64,000 nt of DNA from Tieghemostelium lacteum (taxonomy: Eukaryota; Evosea; Eumycetozoa; Dictyosteliales; Raperosteliaceae). The position numbers were made by a program, and so were the translations under genes. A model generated the notes under the pieces. It did not search any database and was not told the DNA's origin. It was given only the letters and a program-made list of their open reading frames with translations. This document shows, piece after piece, positions 3,317 to 22,563 of the stretch. The stretch lies in assembly GCA_001606155.1 (NCBI GenBank), contig LODT01000001.1, positions 682,001-746,000 of the forward strand. Direction: 5' to 3'. Every line of letters begins with the position of its first letter. The stretch's first letter is position 1.

Positions 3317-4276
3317 TTAGGATGGAATGTAGACTTCTGGATCCTTATCTAAGACTTGGAACAGCTTTTCTAATAGTACACCACCACACTTATCAGACAG
3401 TACTAACAGTGATGTCACTACTTGATCTTTATATTTGTCTTGTAGACATTCTTTCACAATATCTTTGGTAGCTTGTGAGACATTTGATTTCTCTTGATTG
3501 TAATTGACACTATCCTTGGTATAACCTTTGTCTTTAAGTTCTTCTGAGCTGATCCACTTTTTCTGGTTAGATATTTGTACTAAATATTCTACATGTTTCT
3601 TAGCACTCTTTCTCTTACCAGTTACCCATCTTTTAGCCATTATACGTAACATTCCAACACCCATTCTAGAGTTAAGTATCTTTTCAACTAGACTAGCAAT
3701 CTCTTTAGTCTTGGTTGGCTCCTTTTCCTCTAGCTCCAATAATTCTATAACATTATTTCTCCATTTGTTGGTTCTTTCGTCTTTTTCTTTCTTTAGAATT
3801 TCTATCCATTCTTTCAGATGATTTGAGTTCTTTATATCAATGTAAGATTCTAATTCTATCTTCTTGAACTTCTCAATATCCATGAGTAAATCATCCAATA
3901 TTCTATGAGCAGCTTCTTCATCACCATTTCTGGAATTTCGTTGAAGATACTCCACCCACCTTTTTCCTTTGGTATTTCCAGATTCTGTAGAGACACTACT
4001 ATCCAATGATCCCATAATGCTTTTACCTTGGACTCCTGCTAACTCTTGGTGCACTACATGTTGTAAAGTCCCAGATTGATAATCGTCACCATCAATCTCG
4101 TCTACGAGCATATCAGTCACCCTTTTAGCCCTGTCCTCCGGCAGTAAACTTACCAGTTGTTGGTTTACAACCTCATTTACTACCCTTTTACCAGCATTAT
4201 CCAATTTTCCTTGTAGATCTACTTGCATTTGATCATTGTGAAGTACAGGTTGTTGACCTACAACCCCTTCTACCAA
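3317..4276 (-). CDS. Element-encoded protein, main open frame
   Basis: This is a lysine/glutamate-rich, probably helical protein of at least 319 residues that carries no domain I recognise. The listed start is a TTG and the frame stays open upstream into the 51-bp tandem repeats. It lies inside the LTR element, antisense to the window, where a gag-like product would be expected. I see no zinc knuckle or protease motif, so the gag assignment is positional only. It is treated as part of a fossil element. Confidence 0.5.
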   Translation of the reverse strand: MVEGVVGQQPVLHNDQMQVDLQGKLDNAGKRVVNEVVNQQLVSLLPEDRAKRVTDMLVDEIDGDDYQSGTLQHVVHQELAGVQGKSIMGSLDSSVSTESGNTKGKRWVEYLQRNSRNGDEEAAHRILDDLLMDIEKFKKIELESYIDIKNSNHLKEWIEILKKEKDERTNKWRNNVIELLELEEKEPTKTKEIASLVEKILNSRMGVGMLRIMAKRWVTGKRKSAKKHVEYLVQISNQKKWISSEELKDKGYTKDSVNYNQEKSNVSQATKDIVKECLQDKYKDQVVTSLLVLSDKCGGVLLEKLFQVLDKDPEVYIPS

Positions 4277-4529
4277 CGTTATATCCTGTAGTGGACCCGG
4301 TTGAAGACCATCAACCCCATCTACTAACGTTTCATCCTGTAGTGTACCCGGTTGAAGACCATCAACCCTCTCTACTAACGTTTTATCCTGTAGTGGACCC
4401 GGTTGAAGACCATCAACCCTCTATTAAAGTTTTATCCTGTAGTGTACCCGGTTGAAGACCATCAACCCTATTTACTAACGTTTCATCCTGTAGAATACCC
4501 GGTTGAAGACCATCAACCCCATCTACTAA
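4275..4529. repeat. Tandem 51-bp repeat inside the LTR element
   Basis: About five copies of a unit of about 51 bp, each containing CCTGTAGTG and CCCGGTTGAAGACC. In the minus-strand frame they encode a repeated GVDGLQPG motif followed by LQDxTLV. The block links the element's two open frames and may vary in copy number between insertions. Confidence 0.85.
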
Positions 4530-4841
4530 CGTTATATCTCGTGTTGCAGCACCATCGGTCCCCTCACTACAGTCATTGTTTGAATCAATGGTTCTCGTAA
4601 TATATTTATTCCATAATTCTCTATTGGCCTCCTTGCCAATCTTCAAAGGTTCATCAACCTCCATATCATATGGTATATTACTATTACTATTGACACCCAT
4701 GTCAATCTGCAGAGATTCATCAATCTCAATACCCTTATCGGTATTCCTATCCAGACCTTCAGGTCTAACCACCGATTCCACATCATCATTAATTATAATA
4801 GGCACATCTACCCTAATCTCTTCGTATACGTTCGTATCCAA
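4413..4841 (-). CDS. Element-encoded acidic protein, upstream open frame
   Basis: 142 residues beginning MDTNVYEEI, rich in Asp and Glu, ending inside the 51-bp repeat block. It starts about 210 bp inside the 5' LTR, the usual place for the first product of an LTR element. No known fold is recognisable. Confidence 0.45.
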   Translation of the reverse strand: MDTNVYEEIRVDVPIIINDDVESVVRPEGLDRNTDKGIEIDESLQIDMGVNSNSNIPYDMEVDEPLKIGKEANRELWNKYITRTIDSNNDCSEGTDGAATRDITLVDGVDGLQPGILQDETLVNRVDGLQPGTLQDKTLIEG

Positions 4842-14739: not shown

Positions 14740-17015
14740 ATGAAAATAATAATATTAACTTTATTAATATTATTATTTATCAATTTTACTAATTCACAAT
14801 CTAATCCAATAAAGATTGCAGTAATTAGTACCGAGAAACCAAATGATTTAGGATATAATTTTCAAGTTAATGATGCAAAAGTTGCAGTTGAAAAATATTT
14901 TAATTTATCAAATATCTTTTATTATAGTGCCATTGATAAAACAAAAAGTGAACAATTTATTAGAGATTTATGTGAAGATGGTTTTAAAATTATTTTAGTA
15001 CCAACATTGGATTACACAACACAAGCTAAAAAAGTTGCAACCTCCTATCCAAATGTTCAATTTTTAGTTAGAGGTAATAACACAGTTACAAATAATGTAA
15101 TTCATGTAAATTATAATTTTGTTGGTGCAAATTATATTACTGGTTATTTTGCTGGTTTAGTTACAAAAACTAATGTTATTGGTATTTATTAAAATAATAG
15201 TAATATTAACTATATTTAAATATACTAATATTTTTTTTAATAGGATATATTCAACCAGGACCAAAATCAATGAATAATTATCCAGGACATGCATTTTATT
15301 ATGGAGCCAAAAATGCAAATCCAAATGTTACAATGTATTGGTATACAACAGGGTCATGGTCAAATCCAGAGGTATCAGGAGGAGCTACCAAAAAATTAAT
15401 GGAAGAATATAATGTTGATATCTTTGGTCAAACACAAGATGATATGACAGTTAGTATTACTGCTGTTGATCAAGGACATATTGGTATGGGTACTAATGGA
15501 TTTGATCAACAAAAAATCTTTGGTGATAAGATTTCATTTAGTTATATTTTAAATTGGACTGATTGTTTTAAGGATTTTATAACTAATGTAATGGCCTATC
15601 CTGATGGTAATTGGCCAGGTCGTAGTAATGGTTATGGTAATTTTGATAATACATTTATGCCAGTGACATTTGGTAGAAAAGTTACACCAGAGATTAAACA
15701 AAAGGTTGATGATCATATTGTTTATTTTATGAATTTGGGTTTATTAAAGGCTCCATTTTATTGTGATGATGCTAATAAGTATATCTTTTCTGAAACTTTA
15801 TTAAATTCTGATGGTTGTATACTGCCTGCTCAATTTCAAAATATGACTGATCCATTACCTGGTATGACTTGGTTAGGTAATTATAGTATACCTATAACAT
15901 TACGTGAGGTACCAAAATCTTTTACCTATGGTTTTGTAATTGCATCTGGTGTTTTAATTTTCCTATCATTAATTTTAGAATTAATAATTTGGTTAAATAA
16001 GAATCGTTCAGTTATTAGATCAGCTTCACCAGTATTTTGTGAATTAATTGTTTTGGGTGGTATCATTGTTTATATTGGTATCATTCTTTGGACAATCCCA
16101 CCAACTAACGCTCTATGTAATGCTCGTTATTGGTTAGTATCTATTGGTTTTACAATTCTCATTGGTTCATTGGTAGTAAAGAATTTCCGTATTTGGTTAA
16201 TTTTTGATAATCCAGAGTTGAAAACTATTAAAATTACAAATTATCAATTGTTCCCATGGGTTGGTGGTTTAATTTTAATTAATGTTGTTTTGATGGCTGC
16301 TGTTAGTGGTGCTGGTGATTTATCAGTTATTGATGCTATGGGAATTGATGATTTGGGTAAATATGAATATATGCAAAAATGTCAAATGGTTAATGGTTCA
16401 AAAGGTACTATTCCATTATATATTCTATTGGGTTATTTTGCAGTATTATTATTAATTGGTGTATTTGTATCATGGAAAATTCGTATTGTTGATATTGCAG
16501 AATTTAATGAATCCAAACCAATTGCCAATACTCTCTATGCTATCAGTTTCTCTCTGTTTGTTATTGTATCTTTGGTTGCATCACCACAATATTATATTGA
16601 TCAACAAATGATTCTATGTATTGCTGGTTTGTTTATGACAACTGCTGCACTTGGTATTATATTTATTCCAAAGCTTTATGCTTTGGCAACTAGACAACAA
16701 ACTAAAAATTCACAATCTTCATTGTATACAAAGAAAAAATCTACTATTGCCTCTGCTCGTACAAGTAACAGTAAAAATCAATCAGATAGTAAAGATAGTC
16801 AAAATCAAAATCATAATCCAATGCAAAGTGAATTCACTGATGACAGTGATCTCTCTGAAGTCGATCAAAAACTTCCAGAATCTGGTCAAACTCTTTCAAA
16901 TAACAGAGTTTTTGAATTGGGTTCTGGTATGTCTGCTATTGCTTTAGGTAGTGATTTTACTTCTGATTCTGATCCAAATTCAATTGATAATAATAATAAT
17001 AATAATAATGTATAA
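14740..17015 (+). CDS. Grl-type class C GPCR with BMP/PnrA ectodomain, copy 3
   Basis: Two frames join over the intron 15182..15243 (GTATTT...TAATAG, 62 bp) to give 737 residues. The layout matches the two upstream copies: signal peptide (about 1-20), BMP/PnrA-like domain (EKPNDLGYNFQVNDAKV; GQTQDDM), class C seven-helix domain and a Ser-rich acidic tail with EFTDDSDLSE, ending in poly-Asn. The intron sits nine codons further downstream than in copies 1 and 2 (after NVIG rather than after YFAG), in the same phase. This gene closes the three-gene array; the tRNA/retroelement island begins about 180 bp further on. Confidence 0.93.
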
Positions 17016-17195: not shown

Positions 17196-17323
17196 TATAA
17201 CATGGTAAGGAGCATACTTATAAAAAAAATTTTTCTTCTTTTGTTAAGGCGTACCATTTGATACTCTTGTGCCCACTAGTAGGAGGTGGATCAAAAGAAA
17301 AAAAAAAAAAAAAAAAAAAAATT
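17196..17323. mobile_element. Short TRE-like non-LTR retroelement remnant upstream of tRNA-Arg
   Basis: The segment GGTAAGGAGCAT-CTTA, a T-run and GTTAAGGCGTACCATTTGATAC...CTAGTAGGAGGTGGATC match, in the same order, the 19.7-kb locus next to the LINE fragment. It ends in a run of about 24 A at 17300-17323. The end lies about 50 bp before tRNA-Arg, the distance at which Dictyostelium TRE5 elements insert upstream of tRNA genes. It carries no coding sequence. Which end of the element this is depends on orientation, which I cannot fix with certainty. Confidence 0.6.
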
Positions 17324-17374: not shown

Positions 17375-17446
17375 GGCTGTGTAGCACAGTGGAAGTGCGA
17401 TTGGCTACGAACCAATAGGTCGCAGGTTCGAAACCTGCCTCAGTCG
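17375..17446 (+). tRNA. tRNA-Arg(ACG)
   Basis: A 72-base cloverleaf: acceptor GGCTGTG/CTCAGTC, D arm GCAC...GTGC, anticodon stem ATTGG/CCAAT with loop CTACGAA (anticodon ACG, read as ICG), and T arm GCAGG-TTCGAAA-CCTGC (the B box). It is followed by a T-run at 17451 that would stop RNA polymerase III. The acceptor stem has one T-T mismatch and one G-T wobble, so the gene could be slightly decayed or the product edited. A TRE-like remnant ends about 50 bp upstream. Confidence 0.9.
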
Positions 17447-18784: not shown

Positions 18785-19558
18785 TATCAATAATAATAAC
18801 TAATGACATAAACTCTTTAGATCCAATCTATAAAAAATAGGTTTCTTATACTGTTGTCTATGTTAGTATTTATTAAAAAAAAAAATTGGACCATCCACAA
18901 AATTTTGTGTTATTTGTTTAAATGATATTTGACTCAAATGACAGTTTACTAATTTCTAAACCTACCAATCTCTTATCTCTAACAGGGATAATAACCAAAT
19001 AAATACCAGTACAGATTGGCATTTACCCCAGAGGAAATTATTCCATCATTAGATAAAGTCGATGTCAATTCAGTGATATTAATCAATAACCCTAAACCCA
19101 TAAATATTATGCAAAAATTCTGAGACCAACAATTATTTATTTACATTTCAACATCTTCACAACAAGAATTGATCAAAGTAAAAGTAATATTGTTCACTCT
19201 GCGCAATGTTATAGCAGACTGGATAAATTTTTTTAATAATCTTGAAAATTACTGGCAATATCAATAAAACTTTGACATTTACCCCCATGATTTTGTAATT
19301 AAATAATTTTCAAAGTAACATTCCAATTATTGGGGTATTTATTTCTATCTTTTATTTTAGTTTAGAACAGGACATATTCTTCACAATGAATTGTGTGAGT
19401 AAAAAAAGGATACTTTTATAAGTACTTTGGTAAATCAAAGGACTTTACTTGAATTATATTCCAAATATCCAATAATCATAATAATAATATCTAAATCATC
19501 ATTTATATAATAATTTAATAAAATACATTCATTCATTCGAAATTTTCCATATTAACAT
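18785..19558. other. Intergenic, AT-rich
   Basis: About 770 bp with no convincing frame. ACCCATAA at 19096-19103 matches the DUSE promoter element of Dictyostelium small RNA genes, but I cannot show a structured RNA downstream. The 60 bp before 19559 are very AT-rich. Confidence 0.4.
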
Positions 19559-19704
19559 TGTTGTAAAGTACTAAGTATTAACAGTTACGCTAAAAGGTCT
19601 TAAGATGATAGTTATCCATTCCTGACTACCTTTTATGTATACTTTATACTAATCTATATTGTACTCTTGTAACTTGGTAAGGAACATTCTTACATTGTTT
19701 TAAA
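19559..19704. repeat. 146-bp direct repeat, left copy
   Basis: Begins TGTTGTAAAGTACTAAG and ends ACATTGTTTTAAA. It matches 20788..20933 with about two substitutions (GTTATCC/GTCATCC and GGAACATT/GGAGCATT). The inner 136 bp run TG...CA, but the match continues 10 bp beyond. Confidence 0.9.
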
Positions 19705-19782
19705 CATTTTTTTTTTGTTAAAGGCGTACCAATTGATACCCTTATGCCCAGACCCCTAACATGTAGGAGTTGGATCTAAAGT

Positions 19783-20787
19783 TTATTTATGTACATTGAA
19801 AAGGGCCATAAAATGGTCTGGTATTAGAATTTGTATTAGGTTGTTATTTTTGCACCAAGTCTTGGTGAACATTTTGATTTGAAATTTGATCGAGGATATA
19901 CATTGGTTTTTCACCTTGTCTATAGTGGTACTGTGGTGGAGCCTCCAGTGTTTGGACATTAGGCGGAACGTTTTTTCCCATTCTGCTCTTTTAGCTATAT
20001 TCATCTTGTAGGTGACAGCTAGCCAGTTCAGTTCCATATCAATTTTATCGTGATTTTTCTTATTTCTCGAATACCATATGAAGTCAAACAATATAGCAAT
20101 AAATGAACCCAATACTGGGTTGTTGATTTGGTTTAATATTCTTTGGTTCCATTGGTATCTACTTGATAGAACTCTTTCTTGAATATTCTTTATGAAACCC
20201 AGTCTTTTACAGGTAAAGAATATGTGTTCTGACGTTTCTGTTTCCTTGCAGAATGGACACACACTACCATGGACTTTTGGTAAAGCTTTAAGTATATATC
20301 TCCACATCAGGTCTCTACCTTTGTTATTATGACAGTTCTTCAGGTTTTTGAGGATGTGGGGTAGATTTACATTCTCTTCTCTTAATTTTCTTTGGCCCTC
20401 AGTGAGTATCATTACTTCTCTTTGACCGTCTATACGTTTCATCATTACTTCATATATTTCTTTTAATCTTATTCTTCTATTGGTTCCTTCTGGAATTGTC
20501 TTGGAACCTATTTCTGTTTTAGAGTTTGTGTAATCTTTCCATGCTTCAAAACAGTTTTTCATAAATTCAGACGGCATATTGTTTCTCCATCTATGTATCC
20601 ATGCATCCTCGTAGGAGACTGCTAGAGCTGAAGATCTATTTAATCTTTTGATGAAGGTGGTAAAAATCCAAGCTTTTTGAGCCCTTGCTCTAATATCCAT
20701 TTTCCATAGACTGATTCCACCATGTAAAATTGATTTGGACGCTCTTGCTTGTGATATTTTGTTTCTATTTTTCTTGGTAGGGTCCTT
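19783..20787 (-). pseudogene. LINE ORF2 C-terminal fragment (reverse transcriptase tail with zf-RVT domain)
   Basis: Translating the minus strand from 20787 gives an open frame of about 330 residues with no start of its own. It opens with the post-catalytic thumb motif of LINE reverse transcriptases (ISQARASKSILHGGISLWKMD) and ends with the CCHC zf-RVT signature CPFCKETETSEHIFFTC. The catalytic FxDD box would lie upstream and is missing. The frame has no internal stop over 1 kb, so the truncation may be recent. In Dictyostelium, TRE elements are the only non-LTR retroelements known to me, and they target tRNA genes; the tRNA 200 bp away fits. Confidence 0.8.
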
Positions 20788-20933
20788 TGTTGTAAAGTAC
20801 TAAGTATTAACAGTTACGCTAAAAGGTCTTAAGATGATAGTCATCCATTCCTGACTACCTTTTATGTATACTTTATACTAATCTATATTGTACTCTTGTA
20901 ACTTGGTAAGGAGCATTCTTACATTGTTTTAAA
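20788..20933. repeat. 146-bp direct repeat, right copy
   Basis: Near-identical to 19559..19704. It abuts the truncated end of the LINE frame and ends 46 bp before tRNA-Ser. Confidence 0.9.
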
Positions 20934-20979
20934 AATTTCAGAAACCGGTTTATCATAAAATTTTTAATTTCACATCATA

Positions 20980-21060
20980 GTCGATTTGGTAGAGTGGTTA
21001 ATACGTTTGCCTGCTAAGCAAATTCCTTCGGGAGCGCAGGTTCGAACCCTGCAGTCGACG
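20980..21060 (+). tRNA. tRNA-Ser(GCT)
   Basis: An 81-base class II cloverleaf: acceptor GTCGATT/AGTCGAC, D arm with AGTGGTTAA, and anticodon stem TTTGC/GCAAA with loop CTGCTAA (anticodon GCT, Ser AGC/AGU). It has a long variable arm TTCCTTCGGGAGC and T arm GCAGG-TTCGAAC-CCTGC. A T-rich terminator begins at 21061. It is bracketed by a TRE-like element 46 bp upstream and a second LINE fragment about 57 bp downstream. Confidence 0.95.
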
Positions 21061-21116
21061 TTTTATTGTTTTTTTTAGGTTTTAAAAAATTTTGTGGGGT
21101 TTTTTTTTTTTTTTTT

Positions 21117-22240
21117 GGGCAGTGCCTATGAATCATGGGATCTAAAGCTAAGACAAGAAGCCTTCAAGGATATGGAACCTAAACAGGCTGCTTTGTCTAC
21201 ACCATGATAATAATGTTAGCGAGTTCCAAGAATGGTACATTAAACAAATCAAAAACAAAAAGATTGTCTCCGATATTCTCAGACCACAAGTGGATGCATG
21301 GGAAAACTATAGACAAGACCACGCCAGATCGATACCTGAACTGAGAAAGCTAAAAGATTAAGTAGGTGATATCAAAATAGTAAATGGGATTAGAAATGAC
21401 CACAATCAACTCATCAAGTTAAGAGATATATACAAGAACCTGACCATCAAGAAACACAACTCTAGGGTTAGAAGGACTGATGGCCAATCCAATCTCCAAC
21501 TAGACCTTAATCTACAAGGTATATTCCCTAGAATAGCTAGAATTGTTCATCACAAAGGTAGAAATCACCAAAGAAAGAGATGCCCTCTAAATGAATGTAA
21601 TTCAACATTCTCTGATCCATACATCCACTTTTTTTTCAACTGTAAGCTATCAACCAAACACTGTAAGGAAATTGTTCCCATTGTCAACCAACTCTCTATC
21701 AAGAAAATCCACTCTTGGAGTCTAAATGCCATAGATCTAAATCAAATCAGCCACCACGAGAAAACATTCCCAACCCTGATGGCTATAATAATGAACCAAA
21801 TGTGGAATATAATCTGTTACAACCTCTTTGAAACTGACAAATCAAATAGACCACCACCTGTAATGAACACAGCTATAATAAGAAAAGAACTATCCGAAAC
21901 AATCAACATTGCTAAATGGAAACTGCTAAAATACCTAGACTACCAATCAAGGATCAACAACTCCAATGACGATGTTAAACTTAAATTTGAATTCAATAGA
22001 AACTGGCAAACAGTTTAAACAATCCTCTACCAATTCCACATTATTATTATTTTTAAAATTCCAATTTGAACAACTGAAAATAAAGAAGAACTTACAAACA
22101 AGAACTAAAACAAGAAGACCCCATAAGAAGAAAACAAAAACAAGAAGAAGAACACCCACCTATCACAACATAAATGTATCAATCACAACTCACAATAAAA
22201 ACTCACATCACAAAACAAAACAATCAAAACCAAGATAAAT
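21117..22240 (+). mobile_element. Second LINE (TRE3-like by position) fragment downstream of tRNA-Ser
   Basis: The fragment starts after a T-run about 57 bp beyond the tRNA and reads in the same direction as the tRNA. It holds a degraded ORF2 C-terminus and an A-rich 3' region to about 22240; the exact 3' end is unclear. In Dictyostelium, TRE3 elements insert downstream of tRNA genes and TRE5 upstream. Position and the reverse-transcriptase tail suggest a TRE3 relative, distinct in sequence from the element at 19.6-20.9 kb. Confidence 0.65.
21121..22018 (+). pseudogene. LINE ORF2 C-terminal fragment with CCHC (zf-RVT) motif, degraded
   Basis: The coding trace starts at about 21126 (AYESWDLKLRQEAFKD). 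It shifts frame near 21205, has an in-frame TAA near 21358, then stays open to 22018. The zf-RVT-like signature RCPLNECNSTFSDPYIHFFFNC (first part at about 21578) is intact, followed by helices to FEFNRNWQTV. It shares only the domain type with the minus-strand fragment upstream, not close sequence. No catalytic reverse-transcriptase motif remains. Confidence 0.7.
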
Positions 22241-22320
22241 ACCATTTAACACCAACCACAAACACAATTTTAACAGATAATACCTCTCAATAAATAAACG
22301 TAATTAAGACTTTACCGTAG

Positions 22321-22563
22321 TACTGGCGCATTGCTAGTTACACAGGTCCAAAAAAAACCATCTTTGGTGTAGCAGTAACGATAGTATCTATCATTTCACA
22401 GTCTTTATCCAATACGTATTACATTACTGTCACTCAGATCTCAATTCATGTATTGTTTGGCACTATGTGCACTCTTAATCTTATCATTATCGCAGTTATT
22501 TTCCTCATCACCACTACTATTCAAAATGGTCGTAGTGTTAGCTATTGTTTTAGTGGTTTTTAA
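22321..22563 (+). other. Orphan membrane-type open frame (exon-like)
   Basis: 80 codons without an initiating ATG follow ACCGTAG, a plausible splice acceptor ending at 22320. The translation (YWRIASYTGPKKTIFGVA...) has two strongly hydrophobic segments, the second running through LFGTMCTLNLIIIAVIFLI. GC content and codon use are higher than in the surrounding spacer. It could be one exon of a decayed or unrecognised membrane protein. I cannot link it to neighbouring exons. Confidence 0.3.

Follow-up and report, generated by a model that had tools for sequence, protein, structure and literature searches.

In published work on D. discoideum, TRE5 and TRE3 elements occur together at 13% of the tRNA genes. 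Several elements can be found on one D. discoideum tRNA gene, and TRE-TRE tandems are described as forming without integration of the elements into each other (PMC5391098, PMC5006619). The published distance between the TRE5 target-site duplication and the tRNA gene is about 44-54 bp, and an interaction between ORF1 protein and TFIIIB has been published for D. discoideum TRE5-A (PMC5911963). For D. lacteum, described as having a particularly small genome, Dl_TRE5-A is entered in Table 1 of PMC5006619 as lacking tRNA gene specificity (7405 bp, one full-length copy); the table also has Dl_TRE3-A with two full-length copies at distances of 23 and 87 bp and a 4386-bp consensus, and two Ty3/gypsy elements, Dl_DGLT-A.1 with an LTR of 163 bp at 63-64 bp and Dl_DGLT-A.2 with an LTR of 206 bp at 55-65 bp.

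The window analysed here is a stretch of 64,000 nucleotides (positions 682001-746000 of contig C42, in a genome of 23.3 Mb on 43 contigs). An earlier note on this DNA had proposed a serine tRNA gene between two LINE fragments, and the gene was confirmed: both ARAGORN and Rfam (RF00005, 62.1 bits) place tRNA-Ser(GCT) at 20980-21060 on the plus strand. From left to right, the locus holds a partial 206-bp LTR (19416-19552, minus strand; 96% identical over 138 nt to the copy at C43:45482, relative to which it is inverted), an outer 133-bp solo-LTR-like repeat (19562-19694, plus strand), the tRNA-distal copy of a 12-bp target-site duplication, TTGTTTTAAACA (19695-19706), a T run, the 3' tail of a 5'-truncated TRE5-like LINE (19711-20785, minus strand), an inner 133-bp repeat (20791-20923, plus strand, TGTAA..TTACA), the tRNA-proximal copy of the duplication, TTGTTTTAAAAA (20924-20935), then 44 bp and the tRNA gene. 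Both 133-bp repeats are of the type called type 1 below and have TTGT on both flanks; the inner one ends 56 bp from tRNA-Ser, and the outer one has an A at position 123. Behind the tRNA gene lies the 3' tail of a 5'-truncated TRE3-like LINE (21135-22357, plus strand). The names TRE5-like and TRE3-like are inferred and liken the two families to the published elements by description. What the analysis shows are the positions, orientations and duplications and the clustering across the genome; in our judgement the locus is very probably layered, with retrotransposons that inserted separately and at specific positions around a single Pol III gene.

The second tRNA gene of the window, tRNA-Arg(ACG) (17375-17446, plus strand; ARAGORN and Rfam), has, 77 bp upstream, a remnant of this TRE5-like LINE's 3' end that has decayed to 78% identity (17239-17297, minus strand; repeat families D3 and D5). 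In the stretch 17198-17297 this LINE end stands together with the end of a 133-bp repeat. Adjoining this tRNA gene, an open frame of 581 aa at 15270-17015 encodes a family 3 G-protein-coupled receptor domain (7tm_3, 168.7 bits).

Over 1075 nt, the LINE tail upstream of tRNA-Ser shares 99% identity with the single full-length copy that was found for its family, at C23:180183-184890 (4708 bp; ORF1 of 364 aa, ORF2 of 1176 aa), and corresponds to element positions 3632-4706 of 4708. The C-terminus of its ORF2 lies in the stop-to-stop frame 19783-20799, and the T run at its left edge is the element's poly(A). Inspection by eye gave a poly(A) tail and the 12-bp duplication with one mismatch (11/12 identical), which ends 44 bp before tRNA-Ser, within the published range of about 44-54 bp for TRE5 (PMC5911963). 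Once the inner 133-bp copy is subtracted, the LINE junction lies 57 bp upstream of tRNA-Ser. In the full-length C23 copy, a duplication of 14 bp, likewise found by eye, ends 44 bp before tRNA-Leu(AAG). The Pfam domains of this copy are Exo_endo_phos (27.9 bits, above the cut-off) and RVT_1 (117.8 bits); for this family zf-RVT stayed under its cut-off. The family resembles TRE5 of D. discoideum and Dl_TRE5-A in its placement upstream of and opposite to tRNA genes, in the endonuclease-like and reverse transcriptase (RT) domains of ORF2 and in the overlapping ORF1 and ORF2 frames.

The edges of the two LINE fragments differ from those first read. The upstream LINE had been described as ending 46 bp before the tRNA gene, but LINE homology stops at 20785, 194 bp away; in between stand the inner 133-bp repeat with its flanking TTGT, whose edge was mistaken for the LINE end, and the LINE's own 12-bp duplication, which ends 44 bp from the tRNA gene. 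The start placed at 19559 is likewise outside the LINE, inside the left copy of a 152-nt direct repeat which abuts the LINE on both sides. Downstream, homology begins at 21135, 74 bp from the tRNA gene, instead of about 57 bp, and continues to 22357, beyond the end drawn at 22240. The solo-LTR-like repeats sandwiching the upstream LINE had been overlooked. The note had also described two different zf-RVT tails. Different they are, with an alignment between the tails of only 96 aa at 26% identity, and a comparison of the ORF1 proteins of the two LINEs gave no significant similarity. As a Pfam match, zf-RVT was not significant: the upstream tail matches this model with 14 bits (E = 0.082 and 0.079), below the cut-off of 27.5, and the downstream tail had no match in Pfam, zf-RVT included. 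A cysteine-histidine stretch ending in HxFFxCK can be seen by eye in both tails. Both window tails are linked to RT because fuller copies elsewhere in the genome carry this domain.

Targeting would be doubtful if copies of these fragments were scattered without regard to tRNA genes, and this was examined genome-wide. A protein search for the upstream family gave 46 fragments; three of them (30-32% identical, inside relatives of the other LINE) were removed, and other weak matches, down to 27% identity, were retained in the remaining 43. Among these, 35 are placed upstream of tRNA genes and run the opposite way, one lies upstream in the same orientation and seven have no known tRNA within 2 kb. 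Of the 36 fragments near a tRNA, 35 are thus upstream and opposite, and the targeting reading was not refuted. The tRNA list comprises 44 Rfam matches plus ARAGORN calls on the fetched loci, 48 in all; it is incomplete, and the counts of tRNA genes, repeats and LINE fragments are lower bounds.

Nucleotide alignment over 48 stretches gave 26 tRNA genes with an upstream-family copy within 3 kb upstream (rows grouped by hand; one is an odd ARAGORN call on C37), a count which leaves out the matches at C17:100122, C37:22103 and C37:207101. The gap between LINE and tRNA gene was 50-80 bp at 9/26 genes in the raw data and at 18/26 after the intervening 133/135-bp repeats and their 4-bp duplications were subtracted; the copies at eight genes stay outside 50-80 bp despite this correction. 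Three upstream-family loci (C19, C23:538k and C31:595k) had no tRNA within the aligned stretches. Over 29 hand-grouped loci of the family, the gap of 50-80 bp was found at 18 with correction and at nine without. If no more than 420 tRNA genes are assumed, the chance of landing 50-80 bp upstream in this orientation is at most 2.8e-4 per copy. TRE5 elements are expected about 50 bp upstream of tRNA genes, facing the opposite way. The upstream TRE5-like LINE appears to be tRNA-targeted, and more clearly so after solo-LTR subtraction. One full-length copy is found both here and for Dl_TRE5-A, but the copy here has 4708 bp and is tRNA-associated, whereas the published element has 7405 bp and is given as not tRNA-specific (PMC5006619). 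That entry could be explained in part because solo LTRs hide nine of the 18 well-placed copies. If the upstream LINE is Dl_TRE5-A, which fits the single full-length copy and does not fit the 7405 bp, the entry in Table 1 of PMC5006619 needs revision.

The downstream tail aligns in two blocks (92% and 98.7% identical, blastn) to a full-length copy on C30 with an ORF2 of 1168 aa, in which Pfam detected Exo_endo_phos_2 (35.8 bits) and RVT_1 (123.9 bits). The reading frame of the window copy is broken before 21362, and no target duplication was noticed when its flanks in the window were inspected by eye. The genome-wide set of this family has 30 fragments and takes in more distant relatives. Eleven of the 30 lie downstream of tRNA genes and run the same way, one lies downstream in the opposite orientation, one falls across a tRNA match, and for the other 17 no tRNA is known within 6 kb; 11 of the 13 fragments near a tRNA gene are thus downstream in the same orientation. 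This placement is shared with Dl_TRE3-A, as is the number of two full-length copies, whose alignments start about 35 and 74 bp past their tRNAs here, against 23 and 87 bp in Table 1 of PMC5006619. The window copy is only a truncated tail, and the full-length copies align over about 4.7 kb compared with the published consensus of 4386 bp (PMC5006619). Relative to the TRE3 range of 40-150 bp downstream in the same orientation, the window copy at 74 bp is inside, as is one full-length copy (74 bp), and the other, at about 35 bp, is just under. The positions of the downstream LINE are in keeping with TRE3. The proposal of TRE5 upstream and TRE3 downstream at a single tRNA gene is therefore supported by position and orientation genome-wide, more strongly for the upstream family. 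L070, L071 and L075 hold additional LINE copies that share about 40-59% identity with the downstream LINE and have open frames of 322-693 aa; ARAGORN found no tRNA on these three stretches.

The repeat on both sides of the upstream LINE belongs to a family of 133 or 135 bp with 46 genome matches (DNA search; 40 of the 46 candidates scored). Of these matches, 37 lie upstream of tRNA genes and share their orientation, two lie upstream in opposite orientation and seven are near none. There are two types, which differ in the first 12 bases. Whole copies in the fetched stretches end at a median of 56 bp from the tRNA gene for type 1 (n=9, range 49-63) and 64 bp for type 2 (n=10, range 63-71), and all 19 whole tRNA-adjacent copies have the same orientation. 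LTRs usually run TG..CA. The repeat runs TGTAA..TTACA, and its 4-bp duplications vary by locus (TTGT, AGAA, ATTA, AATG, CCAT); some copies, such as those at C4 and C30:1524225, have no clean duplication. Among 12 type 1 copies without gaps, nine are identical, and the family therefore moved recently. Two of these identical copies, C21:206 and C38:196011, have equal flanks and may be one duplicated locus.

Two further LTRs were measured beside tRNA genes. A 206-bp LTR ends 55 bp before the tRNA at C43:45482 and a 163-bp LTR ends 64 bp before the tRNA at C23:1752125 (lengths taken as the extents common to other copies), which matches Dl_DGLT-A.2 and Dl_DGLT-A.1 in Table 1 of PMC5006619 and makes Tieghemostelium (Dictyostelium) lacteum the probable host. 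The 133/135-bp repeat is like DGLT-A in its TG..CA ends, 4-bp duplication, side, orientation and both spacings, but it is another sequence, with 46 matches and no coding copy found, and by LTR length or copy number it has no entry in that table. Between two copies of the repeat, no coding interior (gag, RT, RNH, IN) was found in this assembly with these searches. One polypurine-like junction stands beside the repeat at C30:1306699, and its 155-bp neighbour, searched genome-wide for an internal region, matches only itself. One pattern for the junction of LTR and primer site gave one match, whose letters fit neither repeat type. The flank at C30:1524225 was considered as a primer-binding site and rejected; by eye it is a LINE tail plus about 15 unexplained bases.

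The 133/135-bp repeat is best classed as solo LTRs derived from a DGLT-A-like element, the parent of which has been lost or is missing from the assembly. It is also conceivable, though we regard it as rather improbable, that the repeat is a minimal non-autonomous element which the two LTR families resident here mobilise with their integrases, and that its end sequence determines how far from the tRNA gene it lands, in increments of roughly one turn of DNA (about 10 bp). This idea arises because type 1 (56 bp) shares its spacing with the 206-bp-LTR element (55 bp, one copy) and type 2 (64 bp) with the 163-bp-LTR element, for which one copy was measured at 64 bp and one more, on C18, lies at 63 bp by coordinates.

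For the stack at tRNA-Ser the following order can be proposed. A solo-LTR-like 133-bp element would have inserted at about -57 and duplicated TTGT. The TRE5-like LINE would then have integrated at the same place in opposite orientation by target-primed reverse transcription, with 5' truncation, and the copying of a 12-bp stretch would have re-created the landing site next to the tRNA gene. A second 133-bp element may have inserted into the re-created TTGT; both 133-bp copies would stand at the same TTGT because the LINE duplication restored it. Independently, the 5'-truncated TRE3-like LINE would have landed 74 bp downstream, oriented like the tRNA gene. The assembled Pol III factors would be recognised, with a contact between ORF1 and TFIIIB assumed as in D. 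discoideum TRE5-A. The inner window copy is identical to eight other copies, and the A at position 123 of the outer copy is common to C11 and C23:532679. Since the two copies thus fall into the identical majority and a variant, two insertions are likelier than one 152-bp duplication. This order is an inference from few bases, and the argument about inner and outer copies from one shared base. The presumed parent of the inner repeat is antisense to tRNA-Ser. A sandwich of LTR, LINE and LTR is also present at tRNA-Trp on C38, with another tetranucleotide, and in decayed form at tRNA-Thr on C4, where the outer LTR is partial.

The 152-nt direct repeat directly borders the LINE on both sides, so the LINE might have made a single 152-bp target-site duplication which carried one pre-existing 133-bp element, and both copies would then be one insertion. 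An analogue of about 150 bp at C38, seen by eye, has two identical copies; identical copies there are uninformative between two insertions and one duplication. We think this explanation unlikely. The duplication of the full-length C23 copy is 14 bp, the outer and inner window copies belong to different sub-lineages at position 123, and at C4 the inner copy is complete but the outer one begins only at position 58, although later trimming of the outer copy could account for this. Many LINE tails have the repeat at their tRNA-proximal end, and its orientation beside tRNA genes is fixed, as might be expected of the LINE's own 5' module, comparable to the duplicated B-module of TRE5-A. This was rejected as very improbable: the 5' UTR of the full-length C23 copy has no such sequence and the 133-bp copies have their own 4-bp duplications, so that the repeat is not a B-module of the upstream LINE.

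Clustering at tRNA genes could in principle come without targeting, if a compact haploid genome had lost its insertions at other places through purging; selection against other sites is discussed in PMC5006619. Purging would fix neither the orientation (19/19 whole 133/135-bp copies) nor a spacing within a few bp (medians 56 and 64 bp), and we give this account almost no weight against separate, position-specific insertions.

Among the 44 Rfam tRNA genes, 20 are preceded by a 133/135-bp repeat no more than 100 bp away. The upstream LINE, oppositely oriented, is found within 2 kb of 19 of them, and the downstream LINE, oriented alike, within 6 kb of eight; one of the eight is tRNA-Arg, by way of the fragment behind tRNA-Ser. 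Both sides are occupied at 4/44. Dual TRE5/TRE3 occupancy of one tRNA gene is already known in kind. Compared with the TRE-TRE tandems of D. discoideum, the layers here alternate LINE and solo LTR. Apparently new are a tRNA-targeted Dl_TRE5-A and the 133/135-bp family, neither of which was found in Table 1 of PMC5006619 or in the open-access literature, with few subscription journals covered. These observations would correct the picture of the species, in that its TRE5-like LINE appears tRNA-targeted, and they suggest that, upstream of Pol III genes, the machineries of LINEs and LTR elements act on almost identical nucleotides, with an order readable from the layers. At five contig ends (L008, L011, L012, L024 and C33:1-99) a targeted tRNA gene is no more than about 1.1 kb away, and stacked retrotransposons perhaps broke the assembly there.
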